A DNA stretch of 33,596 nucleotides, taken from assembly GCA_029936485.1 (NCBI GenBank), contig JAPYSM010000003.1, positions 1 to 33,596 of the forward strand, read 5' to 3'. The notes under the pieces are model-generated. The model was not told where the DNA came from. It saw only the letters and a program-made list of their open reading frames with translations, and searched no databases. Positions within the stretch are counted from its first letter, which is position 1, and every line of letters starts with the position of its first letter. Position numbers and translations under genes: made by a program. Of this stretch, positions 6,351-15,615 are shown in pieces. Source of the DNA: Dehalococcoidia bacterium (lineage in GTDB: Bacteria > Chloroflexota > Dehalococcoidia > Lucifugimonadales > Lucifugimonadaceae).

Positions 6351-7007
6351 TTAAGCGCTCAGCGCCTCGGTAACGAAATCGTGGATCTTGACGTCATCCT
6401 TGTCGCCGTCCGTCTCAACTCCGGACGACACGTCAACGCCCCACGCGCCGAGTCCCTGGATGGCATCAACGACGTTGTCCGGGTTCAGGCCACCGGCCAG
6501 TAACACACCTTCCAGTGACGCTACGGCCGCCGCTTTGGACCACTCGAATGGCTTACCGGTCCCGCCCGGACTATTGGGGTCGTAAGCGTCCAGCAGCACC
6601 ATGCGGCCGGCTTCCAGGTGCGCTCTTACCTCCGCCCCAAGATCCTCAGGGGATGTTTCAGGACGCACGCGTACCTGTCTTAAGATCGGCAAATCCACCT
6701 GAGCGTAGTACGCGTCATCCTCATCGCCGTTCAACTGCACCATGTCGAGTCCAGCCATTCGTGCGACCCGATTGACGAACTCAACCGATTGATTGCGGAA
6801 CAACCCAACGACGCGTGGCCCCGGCATCGAATCTTCAGACAGGGAGTTTCGGAAGCGGGCGATTATTGTTGCGCCGGTTGTTGGGTCAAGCTGCCTGCGA
6901 ACACCTTCGACGAAAACGAACCCGACCAGATCCGCGCCGGACAAGGCGGCTGCCTGGGCGTTCTGGGCATCTCGCAGCCCGCAAATCTTGACGTGTGGTG
7001 ATGGCAT
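6351..7007 (-). CDS. trpF: Phosphoribosylanthranilate isomerase
   Basis: TrpF converts phosphoribosylanthranilate to CdRP, the third step after chorismate in tryptophan synthesis. The barrel opens VKICGLRD, with the catalytic cysteine, and closes with LLDAYDPNSPGGTGKPFEW, LAGGLNPDNV and GVDVSSGVE, all family landmarks. I chose the ATG at 7007 (218 residues); a longer reading to 7055 would overlap trpC and adds sequence unlike the family. The gene begins seven bases after the trpC stop, using an AGG inside the end of trpC as ribosome site. It is the last trp gene here, since trpB and trpA do not follow; glmS lies beyond on the other strand. Confidence 0.95.
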   Translation of the reverse strand: MPSPHVKICGLRDAQNAQAAALSGADLVGFVFVEGVRRQLDPTTGATIIARFRNSLSEDSMPGPRVVGLFRNQSVEFVNRVARMAGLDMVQLNGDEDDAYYAQVDLPILRQVRVRPETSPEDLGAEVRAHLEAGRMVLLDAYDPNSPGGTGKPFEWSKAAAVASLEGVLLAGGLNPDNVVDAIQGLGAWGVDVSSGVETDGDKDDVKIHDFVTEALSA

Positions 7008-7014
7008 ATGGCGG

Positions 7015-7824
7015 TTACCTGGCCAGCCTGGCCACAAGCTCTGACACACTGCCACCGGCCCGCATTAGCGATTCACCGATCAATACGGCGTGTGCTCCGG
7101 ATGCCTCCATTCGCTGGACGTCCTGCACACCCTTCATGCCCGACTCGGCAACAAGTATTTTATCTTTGGGAACCTGGGGGGCGAGCGATTCAAACAGAGC
7201 GATATCGGTTTTTAAAGTTTTCAGGTCACGGTTGTTGATCCCGATGATCTGTGGGTTTTGTACAAGTGCAGTATCGAGCTCGTCCTCGCTGAAAACCTCA
7301 ACCAGCACTCCCAACCCGAGGCCCAGTGCGAGGGCAAGTAGCTCCGAGTACTGGTCGGGCTCCAGGATGGCGATGATGAGAAGGACGGCGTCTGCACCGT
7401 TCGCCGCCGCCTCGTAGATCTGGTAGTCGGAGAAGACAAAGTCCTTCTGCATCACCGGCACCCTATCCGGGCCGGCTACCGCCTTCACCATACGCAAGTC
7501 GTCTAGCGTCCCAGAAAAGTGGCTGGCTTCGGTCAGCACCGAGATCGCTGAAGCACCGCCATAAACGAACGTCTTCGCCATCTTTGACGGATCAAGTTCT
7601 GGCGCAAGCGACCCGGCGGACGCTGAAGACCGCTTCATCTCCGTGATTACTGAAACACCGGGGCCAGAGAGAGCCGTATAGAAGTCCGAGCGGGACCCGG
7701 CAGATTCCGCAGCATTTCGTACAGCGGGCAGCGAAATTTCACGCTGCGCCTCGAGAAGCGCCTCTCGTTTATTGGCTACGATTTCGTCTAGTACCGTGCC
7801 GGTGTTTTTGCCGTGCGCGATCAT
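7015..7824 (-). CDS. trpC: Indole-3-glycerol phosphate synthase
   Basis: This 269-residue barrel enzyme closes the indole ring by converting CdRP to indole-3-glycerol phosphate. Family motifs are present in order: VLDEIVANKREAL near the N-terminus, the lysine motif VITEMKRSSAS (commonly EVKRASPS), MQKDFVFSDYQIYEA, GINNRDLKT and VAESGMKG. The change to KRSSAS is mild and keeps the lysine. The start ATG overlaps the trpD stop by four bases (ATGA), so translation is coupled. The product of this enzyme would need TrpA/TrpB, which must be encoded elsewhere. Confidence 0.95.
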   Translation of the reverse strand: MIAHGKNTGTVLDEIVANKREALLEAQREISLPAVRNAAESAGSRSDFYTALSGPGVSVITEMKRSSASAGSLAPELDPSKMAKTFVYGGASAISVLTEASHFSGTLDDLRMVKAVAGPDRVPVMQKDFVFSDYQIYEAAANGADAVLLIIAILEPDQYSELLALALGLGLGVLVEVFSEDELDTALVQNPQIIGINNRDLKTLKTDIALFESLAPQVPKDKILVAESGMKGVQDVQRMEASGAHAVLIGESLMRAGGSVSELVARLAR

Positions 7825-8858
7825 CTTGCGGCCAGCTTCTGAGACAGCGCAGCCAGTGACGCCAGCTTTTCGAGAGCCCTTCCGCTGTCGATGGACTCGG
7901 CCGCGAGACCGGCGGCCTGTTCAAGCGTTTGCGCCTGTCCAACGGCCATTAATGCAGCAGCTGCGTTCATCACTACGACGGTGCGTGCTGCCGCCTCAAC
8001 GCCGGAAGAACTCTTGCCTTCCAGCACCCCGCAGATCAGCCTGATGCTTTCCTCCACCGTGTTTGCGGTCAGGTAGATGCGTTTGTGCTCGGTAAGTCCG
8101 AAGTCATTTGCACTCACGGATCGCTCGGAGACCGGTCCGTTCCCTACCTCGTACACGTGAGATGAGCCCTCGGGGCTGATTTCATCCATACCGTCTTCCG
8201 AGTAAACCACGAAAGCACCGGACGTCCCGAGTATGTGCAACGCCTGTGCCACTTTTCCGGCGGCCGCAGGGTCGCCCATACCGATCACCTGGTGATCCGC
8301 GCTCGCCGGGTTGGTCAGCGGGCCAAGCAGGTTGAAAACGGTCCTGATGCCGATCTGCGGGCGCAGCGGTCCGGCGAACTTCATGGCCGGGTGGAACGCC
8401 TGGGCGAACATGAATCCGATACCGACCTGTTCAAGGCAGCTTCGAACGTGATCCGGTCCGAGATCAATCTTGACCCCTAAAGCTTCAAGCGCGTCTGCGC
8501 TGCCGGATGACGAAGACATCGCTCGATTCCCGTGTTTCGCGACGATCGCCCCAGCGCCGGCGGCCACGAACGCGGCTGTCGTAGAGATGTTGAAGGTCTT
8601 CTGGCCATCGCCACCTGTGCCGCAGGTGTCCACGGTCGGTCCGTCAAACGTGACATGCAGCGACACGTCACGCATGGAGCGTGCCATCCCGGCGATCTCT
8701 TCCGCCGTCTCGCCCTTCATGCGCAGTCCGGTTACGAATGCCCCGAACTGCGCCTCGCTGGCTTCGCCGCCCATGATCTGCTGCATCACGTCCGCGGCTG
8801 CATCGACCGTGAGATCCCGGCCCTCAACAACCTCTGTTATTGCTTCTTTGATGTCCAT
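7821..8858 (-). CDS. trpD: Anthranilate phosphoribosyltransferase
   Basis: TrpD joins anthranilate to PRPP. The 345-residue protein shows the PRPP-binding glycine loop DTCGTGGDG (residues 78-85), then NISTTAAFVAAGAG, KHGNRAMSSSSGSAD (about 108-121) and LGPLTNPA, all hallmarks of this family. The N-terminal helical domain carries LTVDAAADVMQQIMGGEAS. Start ATG 8858 has GAGG seven bases upstream, and the preceding trpG ends nine bases before it. It overlaps trpC by four bases. Nothing is missing or unusual in length. Confidence 0.97.
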   Translation of the reverse strand: MDIKEAITEVVEGRDLTVDAAADVMQQIMGGEASEAQFGAFVTGLRMKGETAEEIAGMARSMRDVSLHVTFDGPTVDTCGTGGDGQKTFNISTTAAFVAAGAGAIVAKHGNRAMSSSSGSADALEALGVKIDLGPDHVRSCLEQVGIGFMFAQAFHPAMKFAGPLRPQIGIRTVFNLLGPLTNPASADHQVIGMGDPAAAGKVAQALHILGTSGAFVVYSEDGMDEISPEGSSHVYEVGNGPVSERSVSANDFGLTEHKRIYLTANTVEESIRLICGVLEGKSSSGVEAAARTVVVMNAAAALMAVGQAQTLEQAAGLAAESIDSGRALEKLASLAALSQKLAAR

Positions 8859-8867
8859 GAGTTCGCC

Positions 8868-9464
8868 TCAAGCACCCACTGGCGCGGACTCAACGGGCGC
8901 TGACTTGTTCAGGAAGTTCTGGAGGAGGGCTTTGCCTACCTCCGTCAGGATAGATTCAGGGTGAAACTGTACGCCCTCTACCGGCAACTCACGATGGCGG
9001 ATGCCCTGGATGATGCCACCCGGGCTGTGTGCCGTCACCTCAAGCGCGTCCGGAATCGAGTCCGGATTAATAGCAAGGGAGTGATATCGGACGGCTTCGA
9101 ATGGATCAGGCAGTCCGGTGAACACCCCTTTGCCGTCGTTTGAAATCATCGAGGTCTTGCCGTGCATGATTTCGCCCGCGTGCTCAACACTTGCGCCGTA
9201 CGCCTCACCGATGCACTGATGACCGAGGCACACGCCCAGGACCGGTACGTGCTGCCCGAAGTGCCTGATGGCCTCGATGGACACGCCCGCGTTCATCGGC
9301 GTTGACGGTCCCGGGGACACCACGACGCGTTCAGGCGCCATCGCTGTCAGCTCGTCGATTCCGGCCGCATCGTTGCGGACCACTTCGACCTCCGCCCCCA
9401 GTTCACACAGGTATTGGTACAGGTTGTATGTAAAGCTGTCGTAATTATCTATTAATAGCAGCAT
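8868..9464 (-). CDS. trpG: Anthranilate synthase component II (glutamine amidotransferase)
   Basis: This 198-residue class I glutamine amidotransferase supplies ammonia to TrpE. The start MLLLIDNYDSFTYNL, the nucleophile elbow GVCLGHQ (Cys79) and the His-Glu pair in QFHPES (His168, Glu170) are all present. By sequence alone it could also serve as PabA in folate synthesis; trp operon position favours TrpG, and a dual role is possible because no separate pabA is visible. It follows the cupin gene by 29 bases and precedes trpD by nine. Confidence 0.95.
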   Translation of the reverse strand: MLLLIDNYDSFTYNLYQYLCELGAEVEVVRNDAAGIDELTAMAPERVVVSPGPSTPMNAGVSIEAIRHFGQHVPVLGVCLGHQCIGEAYGASVEHAGEIMHGKTSMISNDGKGVFTGLPDPFEAVRYHSLAINPDSIPDALEVTAHSPGGIIQGIRHRELPVEGVQFHPESILTEVGKALLQNFLNKSAPVESAPVGA

Positions 9465-9493: not shown

Positions 9494-9934
9494 TCAGGCT
9501 TGAGCATCTGGATACCTCGGATCGCCCGGGATGCGTTCCGGGTTGGGATTGATAAGCGCGCTTTCGATCTTCGGTGGCTCCGGCGCGTCCGGCGCATTGA
9601 TCGAGACCCTTACAGATGGGTCGCGTCCTGTCGTCCTGATGGAGTATTTCGTGCCAGCAGGCACGAACACGATGTCGCCGGGACGGGCGTTCATCACTCC
9701 CTCATCGCCGATACGCCAGGAAATCTGACCGAACAACACAATCCAGAACTCGTCGTTGTCAGGGTTAATAAGATCGAAAACCGACTCGCCGGGCTGGTTG
9801 TAAATAACCCGAACCCGATTCCGGTCGTTCACGATGACGTCTTCACTCCAGGGCGTCTCTTCGTGGGCCGCCAACAAATCGGACAGGCTTGTCCGTTGCT
9901 GATTTAGGAGTGAACCGTTGTCATTTGTCATCAT
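9494..9934 (-). CDS. Cupin-fold protein lacking metal-binding histidines, inside the trp operon
   Basis: This 146-residue protein lies between trpE (82 bases upstream) and trpG (29 bases downstream), same direction. A single cupin barrel is recognisable: NPDNDEFWIVLFGQISWRIG corresponds to motif 1 and ARPGDIVFVPAGTKYSI to motif 2. In canonical cupins motif 1 has two histidines and motif 2 one; here those positions hold other residues (Tyr97 in motif 2), while the glutamate equivalent (Glu62) stays. The only histidine in the whole protein is His24, outside the barrel. It therefore probably binds no metal in the usual way and may bind a small molecule or act structurally. A Pro-rich tail follows residue 115. 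Function is unknown; a regulatory or aromatic-acid-binding role is only a guess from context. Confidence 0.82.
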   Translation of the reverse strand: MMTNDNGSLLNQQRTSLSDLLAAHEETPWSEDVIVNDRNRVRVIYNQPGESVFDLINPDNDEFWIVLFGQISWRIGDEGVMNARPGDIVFVPAGTKYSIRTTGRDPSVRVSINAPDAPEPPKIESALINPNPERIPGDPRYPDAQA

Positions 9935-10016: not shown

Positions 10017-11558
10017 TCAGTCTTCGCCCATGTTTTCTTCGGCATGATCGATGGCCCGCATCATCGCCGCCATCTTGTTGATCGTCTCCTGGTATTCTCC
10101 CTCGGGCGTCGAGTCGGCCACGATGCCGCCACCCGCTTGGACGTGTGCAACGCCGTCCTTGAACACCATAGTCCTCAGCGAGATCGCCGTATCCATGTTG
10201 CCGTCGTAACTGAAGTAACCTGCTGCGCCTGCGTATCCGCCGCGCTGGTCGGGCTCCAACTCTGCGATCAACTCCATCGCACGAACCTTTGGCGCTCCGG
10301 ACACGGTGCCGGCCGGGAAGCCGGCGCGGAATGCGTCGTAAGCGTCTAGGTCATCCCGCAGCGTGCCGGTTACGTGCGATACGAGGTGCATTACGTGCGA
10401 GTAGCGCTCCACATCCATCATTTGCCTGACCTTCACTGTCCCGGGCTTGCACACCCGCCCGACATCGTTCCGGCCAAGATCGAGGAGCATCACGTGTTCC
10501 GCTCGCTCTTTTTCGTCTGATCGAAGCTCTTCTTCCAACTCAAGATCCTCCGCCGGGGTCGCTCCCCGTCGGCGCGTTCCGGCGATCGGATGCAGCGCCA
10601 TTTCGCCATCGATAACCTGGACCAGCATCTCCGGCGATGCTCCGACCAGTTGAAAACCGTCCAGGTTGATGTAGAACATGTACGGAGACGGGTTAACTGT
10701 CCTGAGTGAGCGGTACAGGTCGAATGGCCGGACATCCGTACGGCGCGACATTCGGTGGGACAGAACCACCTGAATCACTTCGCCGTCGAAGATGTTCTTC
10801 TTGCCGACCTCGATCATGTGGTCGTAGTTGTCGCGGCTCATGTTGGATTCGGCTTCGTAGCCGAGATCGCGGCCGTTGGCCGTAACAGGTTCTCCCGGTT
10901 TGCTAGCGTCACCGTAATCGGCGCCGCCCTCCGAGGAACGCATCCCGGGTTGAGGAGCTGAGATTCGCCGATATGCGTGACGGGGAAGTGGTCCCTGCAA
11001 TCGGTTGACCAGTGTTTCCACTTTGTTGGTTGCATCCCGGTATGACCCTTCTACGTCTCCGTCCACGAAGGCGTGTGCGACCACCGAGATCTTGTGCTGT
11101 ACATGGTCAAAAATGAGCAGCCCATCGGCCAGCATGAAGACTGACTCCGGCACATCGACGCCGCAACCCGGTGCCTGTGGCACACGTGGTTCGAAGTACT
11201 TAATGGCGTCGTACGAGACGTATCCGACAGCCCCTCCGGAGAAACGTGGCAACCCTGACTCTTCTGCGTAATGGATCTTTGCGAGACGGGCCTTCAACAG
11301 GTCAAGCGGATCCACTTCACCGCCGGGCTGACCAGGGCCGGTACTTAGAACTTCAAGCGGCTCGGCTCCGATGAAGCTGTAACGGGCCAGGTTCTCGCCG
11401 CCCTCGACGGACTCAAGCAGGAAGGAGTATGGACCGCGGGCGACCTTCAGGTAGGCTGAGACTGGAGTCTCCAGGTCGGCGCTAATCTCCCTGTATACGG
11501 GGATCGTGTTGCTAGTCGCTGCGAGCGATTTGAACTGTTCAAGAGTTGGGGTGTGCAT
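10017..11558 (-). CDS. trpE: Anthranilate synthase component I
   Basis: TrpE makes anthranilate from chorismate using ammonia from TrpG. The 513-residue protein contains the N-terminal LLES motif (YSFLLESVEGG), associated with tryptophan feedback binding in this family, then the chorismate-binding core: SPYMFYINL, ASPEMLV, PIAGTRRRG, LLDLGRNDVG, SHVTG, AGTVSGAPKVRAMELI and the terminal GGGIVADS. The LLES motif separates it from PabB-like enzymes and suggests end-product inhibition. A region around residues 200-235 is longer than usual and Gly/Ser-rich, probably a loop between the N and C parts. Start ATG 11558 has GGAG six bases upstream. A 170-base gap separates it from trpS. Confidence 0.96.
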   Translation of the reverse strand: MHTPTLEQFKSLAATSNTIPVYREISADLETPVSAYLKVARGPYSFLLESVEGGENLARYSFIGAEPLEVLSTGPGQPGGEVDPLDLLKARLAKIHYAEESGLPRFSGGAVGYVSYDAIKYFEPRVPQAPGCGVDVPESVFMLADGLLIFDHVQHKISVVAHAFVDGDVEGSYRDATNKVETLVNRLQGPLPRHAYRRISAPQPGMRSSEGGADYGDASKPGEPVTANGRDLGYEAESNMSRDNYDHMIEVGKKNIFDGEVIQVVLSHRMSRRTDVRPFDLYRSLRTVNPSPYMFYINLDGFQLVGASPEMLVQVIDGEMALHPIAGTRRRGATPAEDLELEEELRSDEKERAEHVMLLDLGRNDVGRVCKPGTVKVRQMMDVERYSHVMHLVSHVTGTLRDDLDAYDAFRAGFPAGTVSGAPKVRAMELIAELEPDQRGGYAGAAGYFSYDGNMDTAISLRTMVFKDGVAHVQAGGGIVADSTPEGEYQETINKMAAMMRAIDHAEENMGED

Positions 11559-11728: not shown

Positions 11729-12751
11729 TCATTTCCAGCTGTCCGTGTAACTGCTGATCTTCATGGCGTCTCGAACGGACTTCATCGTCTCCGCCGCCGT
11801 CACCCGTGCCCGCCGGGTACCCTCCATAAGCGCCTCTTCGACCTCATTCATGTGGGCCTCGTAGTAGGCACGCTTTTCACGGATTGGATCCAGGAAGTTG
11901 TTCATGGCGATGACGAGCGATTTTTTGACGTCGACGTCGCCTACATTCCCGGTTCGGTAGCGCTCTTTGAAATCGTCGACTTCGGCCGTGTCCGGGTTAA
12001 AGGCGTCGTGGTATTCGAAAACTGGATTGCCCTCGACGTGGCCCGGGTCTGTCGCGCGCAATCGGGTCGGATCGGTGAACATGCTCATGACCTTCTTGCG
12101 CACCGTCTCGGGATCGTCCCCGAGCAGGATGGTGTTGCCACGGCTCTTGCTCATTTTGGGCGAACCGTCGGTGCCGGGAAGTCGTGGAATGCGCCCGATC
12201 AGAGTGCCTGGCTCCGAGAAAACAGGGGCGAACAGACGGTTGAACTTGCGTGCGATCTCGCGAGTCATCTCGATGTGCGGCGCCTGATCTTCGCCAACCG
12301 GCACCAAATCAGCGCGTGGCAGCAAGATGTCTGCGACCTGGCTCATCGGGTAGTTGAAGAAACCGACGTTTAACTGATCCGCCCGTAACTGCTCCGTCTC
12401 CGCCTTGAGAGTTGGGTTTCGCTGCAGCATCCCGAGCGGCGTAATGAAGCTGAGCAACATCGTCAACTCTGCGTGCTCTGGCACGTAACTCTGGATGACA
12501 AATGTGCTCTCTTCAGGGTCAAGCCCGACCGAGAGCCAGTCGATAGCGACCTGCAACACGGAATCACGAATCAACTGAATATCGTCTATGTGATCGCCCA
12601 GCGCCTGATAGTCCGCGATAAGAAAATAAGCGTCGTACTCTTGCTGTAGTCGGACCCAGTTTTCCAGTGCACCAACGTAATGACCGATGTGAAGTTGGCC
12701 CGTCGGCCGGATGCCGGTCAGGATTCGTTTTCGTCCAGTGTTGTCAGCCAT
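11729..12751 (-). CDS. trpS: Tryptophanyl-tRNA synthetase
   Basis: The class I synthetase charges tRNA-Trp. HIGH is at residues 21-24 (GQLHIGHYVG) and KMSKS at 199-203 (GSPKMSKSRGNTI), with PVGEDQAPHIE between, all typical of TrpRS; 340 residues is the normal size. Start ATG 12751 has GAGG five bases upstream. The gene is preceded by a T-box leader whose specifier triplet is UGG, so its transcription should rise when uncharged tRNA-Trp builds up. It is the first gene after that leader; trpE follows after 170 bases. Confidence 0.97.
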   Translation of the reverse strand: MADNTGRKRILTGIRPTGQLHIGHYVGALENWVRLQQEYDAYFLIADYQALGDHIDDIQLIRDSVLQVAIDWLSVGLDPEESTFVIQSYVPEHAELTMLLSFITPLGMLQRNPTLKAETEQLRADQLNVGFFNYPMSQVADILLPRADLVPVGEDQAPHIEMTREIARKFNRLFAPVFSEPGTLIGRIPRLPGTDGSPKMSKSRGNTILLGDDPETVRKKVMSMFTDPTRLRATDPGHVEGNPVFEYHDAFNPDTAEVDDFKERYRTGNVGDVDVKKSLVIAMNNFLDPIREKRAYYEAHMNEVEEALMEGTRRARVTAAETMKSVRDAMKISSYTDSWK

Positions 12752-12784: not shown

Positions 12785-13130
12785 CTTCGGGCAAAAAAAT
12801 ACCTCGCTCCCGGAAGGGGCGAGGTTGAAATAGCCACGCGGTGCCACCCTTGTTACCAGGGCGGGAAACTAATGTTCCTCACTCCGGCATCTCAAATCAG
12901 GCGCCGATCCCGGTTCCCACTAACTGGAGAACGGCCCGAGGCCCTGGGCTCTGATAACGGTGCCCACTCCGGCAAAAACTAATCGGGTGGCGACTGCCAT
13001 CCCTTTCACCCTGCGGCTCCAAGGTCCATTCGGTAAAGTTCGTGGATACCGGACTCACACCAACTCCGGCTCGCTCGTTCTCGTAACTCGACCTACTAGT
13101 CCATGTCACAGCCATTACGAAATCTGATTA
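12785..13130 (-). promoter_or_regulatory. T-box leader sensing tRNA-Trp, upstream of trpS
   Basis: Read on the minus strand, the trpS leader has the marks of a T-box riboswitch. AGTA and GGTC start the specifier helix, which closes with GACC after the triplet UGG (13028-13026) in context CGAATGGACC; UGG is the tryptophan codon and GAA-NNN-A is the usual specifier setting. The distal Stem I part carries GAGCCGG and GGTGTGAGTCCGG, resembling the conserved loops that stack on the tRNA elbow. The T-box sequence AGGGTGGCACCGCG lies at about 12850-12837 and forms the antiterminator with CCCTGG (12861-12856). A terminator hairpin follows. Uncharged tRNA-Trp should stabilise the antiterminator and allow trpS transcription. 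Exact stem boundaries were drawn by eye. Confidence 0.93.
12793..12824 (-). terminator. Intrinsic terminator of the T-box leader
   Basis: On the minus strand, CCTCGCCCC and a matching GGGAGCGAGG form a stem of about nine pairs (12824-12816 with 12810-12802, one G-T pair) around a five-base loop, followed by TATTTTTTT (T-run 12799-12793). It lies just downstream of the T-box motif and before trpS, where the conditional terminator of a T-box belongs. Confidence 0.9.
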
Positions 13131-13136
13131 ACCACG

Positions 13137-13166
13137 AGTATATGTAGATGCTTCTCGTCGCGTCAA
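13137..13166 (-). promoter_or_regulatory. Predicted sigma-70-type promoter of the T-box/trpS transcript
   Basis: On the minus strand, TTGACG (13166-13161) and TATACT (13142-13137) are 18 bases apart, close to the consensus -35 and -10 boxes. Transcription would start near 13130, giving a leader of about 380 bases that begins just ahead of the T-box Stem I. The placement relative to the riboswitch is the main support. Confidence 0.7.
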
Positions 13167-13301: not shown

Positions 13302-14099
13302 ATGAATCGGGCCGTGCGTGCGGGGATGTTTCTCGTGATCTCAGCGTTGTTTGTGTTGGCGGCTGCGTGCGGTAGCGACGACACACCGCCTGACGCAGAG
13401 TTCGCTCCACGCATAGAGGTTTTCGCGCCGATCGACGTGGCCGAGGTCATAGTTACGGATGATGGCGAGTCCGACTATCTGCTCAGGATTGTGTCAGGGC
13501 TGCCAAATGGCTGTGCGAAGTATGACAACATGCATGTGAACGTCGGAACTGGCGTCATCACTGTGAGCGTCATGAACACAATCCCTGAAGATGTTCGCGT
13601 GGCCTGCACTGAGATATATGGATCACATGATCGGACGGTTGAACTACAAGGACTTGAAACCGCGACCGATTACGAAATTATCGTCAACAGCGCTATCAAT
13701 CTCACGTTTACCACAGAGGCGGAACCCACAGAGGGGATGCGTTCTGTTCAGGCTCGGATCTTAGATTTCAGGCTTGAGCTGACGAATAGCAATCCATTGA
13801 GCTATGACTTCATCATGAACTCTGGTCTAGAGTCATCATGCATCACCCGAGGTGATGCAAATCAATCACGCTCGGGTGGCCGGCTGTTCGGCGACTTGAT
13901 TCGGATCAACCTCACCAATTTTGAAGATATCGATTCCACGGTGGAGTGCACCGGTGAGTTCACGCCGTACGAGACACGTCTAACGCTTCCTGGCAACTTT
14001 GTGATCGATGGCGAATACGAGATATTGCTCAACTTTGGCAATGTGTACGAATTCATGGGTGGCTCGACTGTGCTGCGAATCAAGCCGCCTACAAACTGA
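13302..14099 (+). CDS. Predicted lipoprotein with two similar halves, function unknown
   Basis: The 265-residue product has a signal peptide ending VLAAAC, with Cys23 as likely lipidation site (position -3 is Ala rather than the usual Leu, so the lipobox is imperfect). A short Asp/Pro-rich linker follows. Residues about 55-135 and 160-255 look like two copies of one module: each has SGL then a cysteine about three residues later, a V-CT or VECT block, and DYEIIVN or EYEILLN near its end. The paired cysteines per copy could form a disulfide outside the membrane, with a beta-rich fold. I do not recognise the family. ATG 13302 has AAGGAG ten bases upstream. The 3' end overlaps the convergent M81 peptidase gene by 11 bases. 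Confidence 0.82.
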   Translation: MNRAVRAGMFLVISALFVLAAACGSDDTPPDAEFAPRIEVFAPIDVAEVIVTDDGESDYLLRIVSGLPNGCAKYDNMHVNVGTGVITVSVMNTIPEDVRVACTEIYGSHDRTVELQGLETATDYEIIVNSAINLTFTTEAEPTEGMRSVQARILDFRLELTNSNPLSYDFIMNSGLESSCITRGDANQSRSGGRLFGDLIRINLTNFEDIDSTVECTGEFTPYETRLTLPGNFVIDGEYEILLNFGNVYEFMGGSTVLRIKPPTN

Positions 14100-15615
14100 C
14101 CCCTCCCGGCTGGTAGTCTGCATCCTCCTCGAACGGGTAAAGTGGCCGGCGTCGATGCTTGAAGTTGAACGTCGAAAGGTCGGCGCTTGAGACACCCGGC
14201 GTGTCTGCCAGGATGATCTCCCGAGCGATCGGCTCGTACGCGGCCCTCGGGGAGACTACTCCTTTGGCGATCACGATTCGATAGCGCTCGGGGATGATGC
14301 CGATCGAGTACATCTGCTCCCTTGTCATGTTGCCGACACCTCGCTTTGTGTGCAGCAGGAGCGTGTTCCCTTCACCGAGGCCTCCCGTGGGAGCGAGGTC
14401 TAGTGCCACGGTCGGGCCGTAGTTGAAAAACCTGAACCCGCCGTGGATAGGCGTCGGCTCTTCAAAACGCCCGTCTGTGATCGCCCGAACATGGCCACTG
14501 ACCTCGATAGGGATGCCGTGAAGATCATCTGTTTTGCCGCCAACCTTGAGCGTCACGTCAGTACCCGGACCGGCGGCGATGCACGCTTGCACGGATTCCG
14601 GGTCGAACAGGCTCATCAGTAGCTCGGAAGCGTGCTGTCGCTGTGCCTCCACCAGTAGATGGGTGGAATCAGCAGAACCGCCGCCGCCCACGTTGTCGCC
14701 CATATCCATGATTACGCTCGGCCCTCCATCTAATGGCGCGTTTATCGCCGCGGCCAGCGCTTTGGAAGGCGTAGGAGTGTCGTTGCCGAATAGCGCTCGC
14801 CGCTTCCAAGCCCGTTCCGCAAGCCACTGTGCTGCGTCACGTGCCGCATTAACATCGCCGTCCGCGATCACGACGAATGACACGCCCATCTCGATCACAT
14901 CTGCGTACGGATAGCCCTGTCCACAACTTGCCGAGATAATCCCTGGCCGCTCAATCACGGCTCGTACATCATCCATCACGGATTTCATTGGCTCGAGTTC
15001 GGTGGCCTGCTTGGAGATGTTGATCACCATAGGCAGTTGCTCGATCCATTGAACGGGGTTCACATCGCCCCGAATCGTTTGGACCAGGATCTCGGACGCC
15101 TCAACGGCGCGCGCCTTCGGATCCAGATGTGGGTTGGTTCGGTATACGACCGTAGCGTCCACGTTCTCCACCATGGCACGGGTGATGTTTGAATGTAAGT
15201 CAAGGCACATCACGATCGGCGTGTTGGCGCCCACGGCCTCCCGGACCCGGGAAGCGATCTCACCATCCATATCCGAAAATTCTTCGGACACGGCGGCTCC
15301 GTGCTGGCCAAGCAAAATGCCGTCAAACGGCCCTGCGCCCCGAAGCATATCGATCATCTCTCCGACGATCCGATCAAACGCGTCCTTCGTGACGGTACCC
15401 GTTGGTCCGGTGAACGCGTGTAACAGGGGCACTAGATCAAACTCGTAACGACCTGCACCTTCAAAGAAACCAGAGATCGTGGAGTTGGCGGTGGCGTGTT
15501 GCGCCGTGATCTCGTCGTCCCGAAGCAGCTCAAATTCTTCGAAAGCCTCGTACGTCGTTGGCACCGTTTGAAACGTGTTCGTCTCGTGCATCATCCCGAG
15601 GCAAGCGATCCGCAA
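14089..15615 (-). CDS. M81 family metallopeptidase (MlrC-like)
   Basis: The 508-residue protein belongs to the M81/MlrC family of zinc-dependent peptidases, named after the third enzyme of microcystin breakdown. It begins MRIACLGMMHETNTF, with the typical HETNTF block; LLGQHGAAVSEE (His105), CLDLHSN (Asp139, His141) and RTNPHLD (His163) carry likely metal ligands. The C-terminal half (MlrC_C) has VIMDMGDNVGGGGSADST. Members are common in marine and soil bacteria with no microcystin, so the real substrate is unknown; it may be a small peptide or peptide-like compound. The start is TTG at 15615, with GGGAG eight bases upstream. It is cytoplasmic, since no signal peptide is seen. Confidence 0.9.
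   Translation of the reverse strand: MRIACLGMMHETNTFQTVPTTYEAFEEFELLRDDEITAQHATANSTISGFFEGAGRYEFDLVPLLHAFTGPTGTVTKDAFDRIVGEMIDMLRGAGPFDGILLGQHGAAVSEEFSDMDGEIASRVREAVGANTPIVMCLDLHSNITRAMVENVDATVVYRTNPHLDPKARAVEASEILVQTIRGDVNPVQWIEQLPMVINISKQATELEPMKSVMDDVRAVIERPGIISASCGQGYPYADVIEMGVSFVVIADGDVNAARDAAQWLAERAWKRRALFGNDTPTPSKALAAAINAPLDGGPSVIMDMGDNVGGGGSADSTHLLVEAQRQHASELLMSLFDPESVQACIAAGPGTDVTLKVGGKTDDLHGIPIEVSGHVRAITDGRFEEPTPIHGGFRFFNYGPTVALDLAPTGGLGEGNTLLLHTKRGVGNMTREQMYSIGIIPERYRIVIAKGVVSPRAAYEPIAREIILADTPGVSSADLSTFNFKHRRRPLYPFEEDADYQPGGVSL

Follow-up and report, generated by a model that had tools for sequence, protein, structure and literature searches.

The locus described here raises the question of what a cupin devoid of metal-binding histidines does between the genes for the two subunits of anthranilate synthase, a textbook two-component enzyme with a feedback site of its own. 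The window, i.e. the whole stretch of DNA analysed (33,596 nucleotides from a Dehalococcoidia bacterium), carries at positions 9494–9934 of the minus strand an open reading frame (ORF) for a protein of 146 amino acids, identified by ORF calling, Pfam search, alignment and AlphaFold2 modelling as a single cupin_2 domain that has lost its metal ligands (hereafter trp cupin). The same span yields no such protein on the plus strand. The translation matched Pfam Cupin_2 (PF07883) with an E value of 6e-8 and 32.7 bits (curated cut-off 27.2). Cupin motifs had been assigned to this position, in the same direction as trpE and trpG, by the first-pass annotation; its coordinates were right, and the strand, which it had left unstated, is the minus strand. 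A pseudogene or over-called ORF was ruled out by the dN/dS value (0.085) together with the intact frame in 7 genomes, and an assembly artefact of a single metagenome-assembled genome (MAG) by the recurrence of the gene order in 7 separate assemblies.

The protein was modelled with AlphaFold2, using an alignment of 40 rows (mean pLDDT 81.5, with low confidence at both ends). The model shows the double-stranded beta-helix barrel of the cupin superfamily, comprising nine strands between residues 29 and 113 with a barrel pLDDT of about 85–95, and the check by structure prediction proposed earlier thus returned a barrel. A structure search with this model retrieved 650 PDB chains at a Z score of 8 or more. 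The matches were cupins with many functions lying within about one Z unit of each other (best Z >13), so that the modelled fold gives no pointer to function. Kinship with 3-hydroxyanthranilate dioxygenase (TIGR03037), tempting given the pathway, was rejected at 11.7 bits against a cut-off of 145.95 (E 0.2). The protein also differs from cupins with two domains per chain in having one domain within its 146 residues.

To locate the metal site, the trp cupins were aligned with the N- and C-halves of 34 two-domain cupins, and also with four single-domain cupins, from related genomes. In the two-domain proteins, His/His/Glu/His is the ligand set of almost every N-half and of most C-halves. In 7/7 trp-operon cupins, the same positions are occupied by Leu55 (first histidine; codon 9770–9772, minus strand, this and the following coordinates being computed from the ORF), Asn57 (second histidine; 9764–9766, minus), Glu62 (glutamate; 9749–9751, minus) and Tyr97 (third histidine; 9644–9646, minus). 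Three of the four ligands, all of them histidines, have therefore been lost and the motif-1 glutamate has been retained, and none of the seven orthologues shows the combination of HxH...E in motif 1 and a histidine in motif 2 that marks metal-binding cupins. The sole histidine, His24 (codon 9863–9865, minus), is placed by the model after a helix (residues 17–23) and ahead of the first barrel strand (29–35). The earlier description of a histidine-free barrel with His24 outside it was borne out as to the three replaced positions, and is to be supplemented by the retained Glu62, which it did not mention. Tyrosine replaces the third histidine in other ligand-losing domains as well (L015_C, L016_C, L018_C and L022_N), so that, on this alignment, ligand degeneration is recurrent within the family formed by the trp cupin and its two-domain relatives. 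The substitutions, as read from the alignment, suggest a remodelled pocket at Leu55, Asn57, Glu62 and Tyr97.

On the minus strand, the gene order is T-box leader, trpS, trpE, cupin, trpG, trpD, trpC, trpF. The first gene of the cluster, trpS (11729–12751), lies 170 bases ahead of trpE (10017–11558; anthranilate synthase component I). The cupin gene is separated by 82 bases from trpE and by 29 bases from trpG (8868–9464; the glutamine amidotransferase component II), followed by trpD (7821–8858), trpC (7015–7824) and trpF (6351–7055; true start probably about 16 codons inside the ORF, near 7007), all on the minus strand. The Trp pathway is split in this genome, with trpB located on a separate contig (G000:C66:11780-12931). 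Beside the operon, a gene for an MlrC-like protein (microcystinase family; 14089–15615, minus strand) was found, which scored 151 bits, far below the cut-off of 999 bits, and recurs at the same place in other members of the genus. Inverted-repeat-like stretches of the form CCCTCACCCT...GGGAG were seen between trp genes in several genomes (L031, 7438–7544; L032, 4967–5120; L089, in the trpE–trpG gap) and possibly represent a dispersed repeat.

Upstream of trpS, a T-box leader was detected with Rfam (12812–13118, minus strand; E 2e-15, 71 bits, below the Rfam cut-off of 93); the equivalent leaders of sister genera scored 98–114, above that cut-off. Its specifier codon was read as UGG (Trp), trpS being the first gene downstream, and the six loci of the genus that were scanned all keep the GGGTGGCACCGC box along with the GAA-TGG-ACC specifier region. 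A stretch at 13137–13166 (minus), immediately upstream of the T-box, agrees with the sigma-70-like promoter consensus at 10 of 12 positions, a consensus match only. A pattern scan of the minus strand revealed no terminator-like sites in the trpS–trpE and trpE–cupin gaps. Order, direction and spacing suggest that the cupin gene shares a transcript with the T-box and the trp genes, and given the Trp T-box ahead of trpS, it is probably co-regulated with Trp synthesis. TrpE of the window keeps LLES and NPSPYMF, which we take to be tryptophan feedback motifs; the cupin is therefore not needed as a replacement for a missing Trp sensor, an idea thereby ruled out, and any regulation by it would come on top of TrpE's own feedback motifs.

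The distribution of the arrangement was determined in the genus and beyond it. The genus, which consists of uncultured marine bacteria, was represented by 8 genomes, 7 of them with the trp locus assembled, and all seven displayed the order trpE–cupin–trpG with the same ligand substitutions; the orthologues of the six other genomes are 83–98% identical to the protein of the window. The search for conserved order proposed in the first-pass annotation thus found the gene neither absent nor scattered within the genus. Six of the 7 loci were also matched to named records, all of them Dehalococcoidia/Chloroflexi MAGs, and the lineage is taken to be SAR202-like, as judged from class and sample names rather than from a marker-gene tree. 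The eighth genome (G298) is missing trpE and trpG as well, so its trp locus was probably not assembled, and a loss of the cupin was discarded as a reading of this case. Searches of other family genomes (76), a class sample (294) and a phylum sample (400) returned matches with at most about 45% identity, which, where examined, were mostly domains of longer cupins.

None of 23 trpG loci from other genera of the family has a cupin at trpG. In 17 of them, a trpE-like gene ends 2–20 bases before trpG and in three the distance is 63–186 bases, while no trpE was matched in the remaining three. The trp cupin is thus a genus-level insertion into a trpE–trpG junction that is tight in most sister genomes, and since the other examined genera carry trpE and trpG without a cupin between them, anthranilate synthase in the family does not require it. 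It had been suggested initially that the protein could bind an intermediate or tryptophan, stabilise the TrpE–TrpG complex or regulate the pathway; the association on which these ideas were built holds across the genus, and a general role in anthranilate synthase does not, as the other examined genera have no cupin between trpE and trpG.

In one other genus (g5; L125 and L126), the slot is filled differently, the T-box operon containing a trpE orthologue (63% identity), then a second TrpE-like gene and then trpG. This second gene (L125, 4680–6083; L126, 4008–5417) encodes a protein 40% identical to TrpE of the window and thus occupies the same slot as the cupin; it also adjoins trpG at most other g5 loci. 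Its product in L125 scored under the cut-offs of both TIGR00564 and pabB, and its N-terminal motif is FESES, not LLES. No counterpart was found in the cupin genus at E 1e-30.

Selection was assessed from the median dN/dS over all pairs, which was 0.085 for the cupin, 0.059 for trpE, 0.056 for trpG, 0.099 for trpD, 0.072 for trpC and 0.044 for trpS, values that are approximate because dS is near or above 1 in distant pairs. The trpF gene was left out of the comparison, as its dN in L034 seems to stem from an error of frame or alignment. The cupin is under purifying selection, its dN/dS lying inside the span covered by the trp genes. Among the 7 orthologues, 71/88 positions of the barrel are invariant (pN/pS 0.105); the linker (residues 117–130) is variable (pN/pS 0.333), and beyond it lies a C-terminal tail (residues 131–143; 9506–9544, minus strand) with 9/13 invariant positions (pN/pS 0.137) and an unchanged ERIPGDPR. 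The tail has low model confidence and is probably disordered. In a domain tree, built without the ligand columns, the trp cupins grouped as a single clade (100/99), whose stem measures 1.22 changes per site and whose crown measures about 0.1; on this tree, either half (N or C) of the two-domain cupins may be the parent. The long stem, the shallow crown and the conserved tail, which is new relative to the two-domain kin, look as if the protein had changed its function and then come under constraint. A histidine-free cupin from a distant class member (L014) joined a long branch in this tree and, as far as its short contig could be read, is not trp-linked. The neighbours of the two-domain cupins gave no functional hint, as their contexts vary (Glu-tRNA synthetase, UxuA-like, MR/MLE enzyme, Gfo/Idh/MocA) and nothing in them is decisive.

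As an explanation, we tentatively favour an accessory protein of early Trp synthesis that would bind a ligand without being catalytic. According to this proposal, a metal-free single-domain relative of the two-domain cupins would have become part of the trpS-trpE-trpG-trpD-trpC-trpF operon, itself under T-box(Trp) control, in the ancestor of the genus, a step suggested by the distribution and the tree. Fast early change, with the loss of three histidines and the gain of the tail, then gave way to strong purifying selection. The protein would be made when uncharged tRNA-Trp builds up, could use the remodelled Leu55/Asn57/Glu62/Tyr97 pocket to bind a small carboxylate or aromatic compound of early Trp synthesis (e.g. 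chorismate, anthranilate or Trp), and might modulate or buffer the flux through anthranilate synthase, possibly docking through the conserved tail. Counted in favour of the accessory role were the gene order (7/7), the dN/dS value, the identical pocket substitutions, the shape of the tree, the tight junctions of most sister genomes, the T-box, the modelled barrel and the constraint on the tail. Counted against it were the other examined genera of the family, which run the pathway without the cupin, the lack of an obvious genus-specific change in TrpE or TrpG, and the fact that operon position alone can mean mere co-expression. When TrpE and TrpG were inspected by eye, no obvious genus-specific feature answering to a new partner was noticed. 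In a more specific version, considered quite unlikely, the degenerate cupin would have been recruited to anthranilate synthase in one marine genus as its third component, with a regulatory role; it would be made by way of the T-box upon Trp starvation and would sense a pathway metabolite in the former metal pocket.

Mere co-expression would be the whole story if the cupin were a passenger that shares only the T-box control of the operon and serves an unrelated function, useful in Trp-limited cells and outside the Trp pathway. Its confinement to one genus and the second TrpE-like gene in the same slot of another genus agree with such a role, as do published insertions of genes of unknown function into trp operons, whose passenger status the authors left open (PMC2395257). 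A passenger would, however, be expected to have been lost or moved in some genomes, whereas the cupin sits between two subunits of one enzyme and is kept in all seven; this explanation appears somewhat unlikely. A scaffold that does not bind a ligand, with a dimerising barrel and a tail docked on TrpE, TrpG or another enzyme of the pathway, is unlikely. It would account for a conserved, probably disordered tail past the end of the two-domain relatives, and CENP-C/Cnp3 cupins, which are metal-free and dimerise, are among the structural matches; however, many enzyme cupins score equally well (Z 13–14), and no clear matching change is apparent in TrpE or TrpG.

The pocket residues themselves bear on two further alternatives. 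RmlC epimerases are known as metal-free cupin enzymes, and Glu62 and Tyr97, invariant in 7/7 trp cupins, could act as acid/base residues of a metal-independent enzyme of the isomerase or lyase type. Yet tyrosine also replaces the third histidine in L015_C, L016_C, L018_C and L022_N, where it may just fill an empty site, and the pathway has no apparent unfilled step; catalysis is therefore regarded as improbable. A metalloprotein with unusual ligands (e.g. Glu62, Asn57 and Tyr97) is very improbable: although Glu62 is kept and two positions offer oxygen or nitrogen donors, all three histidines are gone, and the second of them, which the relatives conserve more strongly than any other ligand, is replaced by an asparagine.

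In this modest but clean example, a classical operon has captured a degenerate cupin. As the metal-free cupin is inserted genus-wide and living relatives exist on both sides of the event, it provides a natural case for studying how a component is added to an operon and to what new use a metalloenzyme fold is put after its metal site has been lost. If the cupin did act on anthranilate synthase, it would add a new layer of control to a classical pathway.

Among known systems, the nearest kin of the trp cupin are two-domain cupins encoded in the same genomes and in others of the family (about 240–330 amino acids, Pfam Cupin_2 twice). The likeness reaches 45% identity over residues 11–140 and includes the domain start (a helix, then W..E....RNR) and the barrel. 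The trp cupin differs in its single domain, the loss of three histidines, about 24 extra residues at the C-terminus and its location in the trp operon, the two-domain cupins examined being encoded elsewhere. Three of the latter are present in this genome (contigs C114, C152 and C54; L101, L102 and L103). Many relatives encode related proteins, and in several of these one half has lost ligands, the third histidine having changed to tyrosine more than once. The best matches by both sequence and fold among solved structures were 3h8u (Klebsiella) and 1v70 (Thermus TTHA0104), both of them single-domain cupins without an assigned function (E 2e-6 and 1e-4 in the sequence comparison; Z 13.5–13.8 in the structural one; 20–22% identity), which, unlike the trp cupin, keep the His ligand positions in the sequence alignment. 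The cupin domains of CENP-C/Mif2/Cnp3, metal-free dimerising modules, likewise obtained a high structural score, tied with others, at 16–19% identity; they belong to eukaryotic kinetochore proteins, and kinship beyond the fold is unsupported.

A literature search returned no paper that connects a cupin to the trp operon or to trpE/trpG, and one for metal-independent cupins yielded nothing of use. Trp operons that contain inserted genes of unknown function have been described from the Sargasso Sea metagenome (trpB–trpA and trpF–trpB; PMC2395257). These cases resemble the present one in placing a non-trp gene inside a trp operon of marine bacteria, but they use other slots, and a cupin is unmentioned there (PMC2395257). 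T-boxes before trp genes have been published for Dehalococcoides (PMC2494555), which has the phylum and the T-box control of Trp genes (trpE and trpB-like genes) in common with the lineage studied here; in the present locus, by contrast, the leader lies ahead of trpS and the operon holds a cupin.
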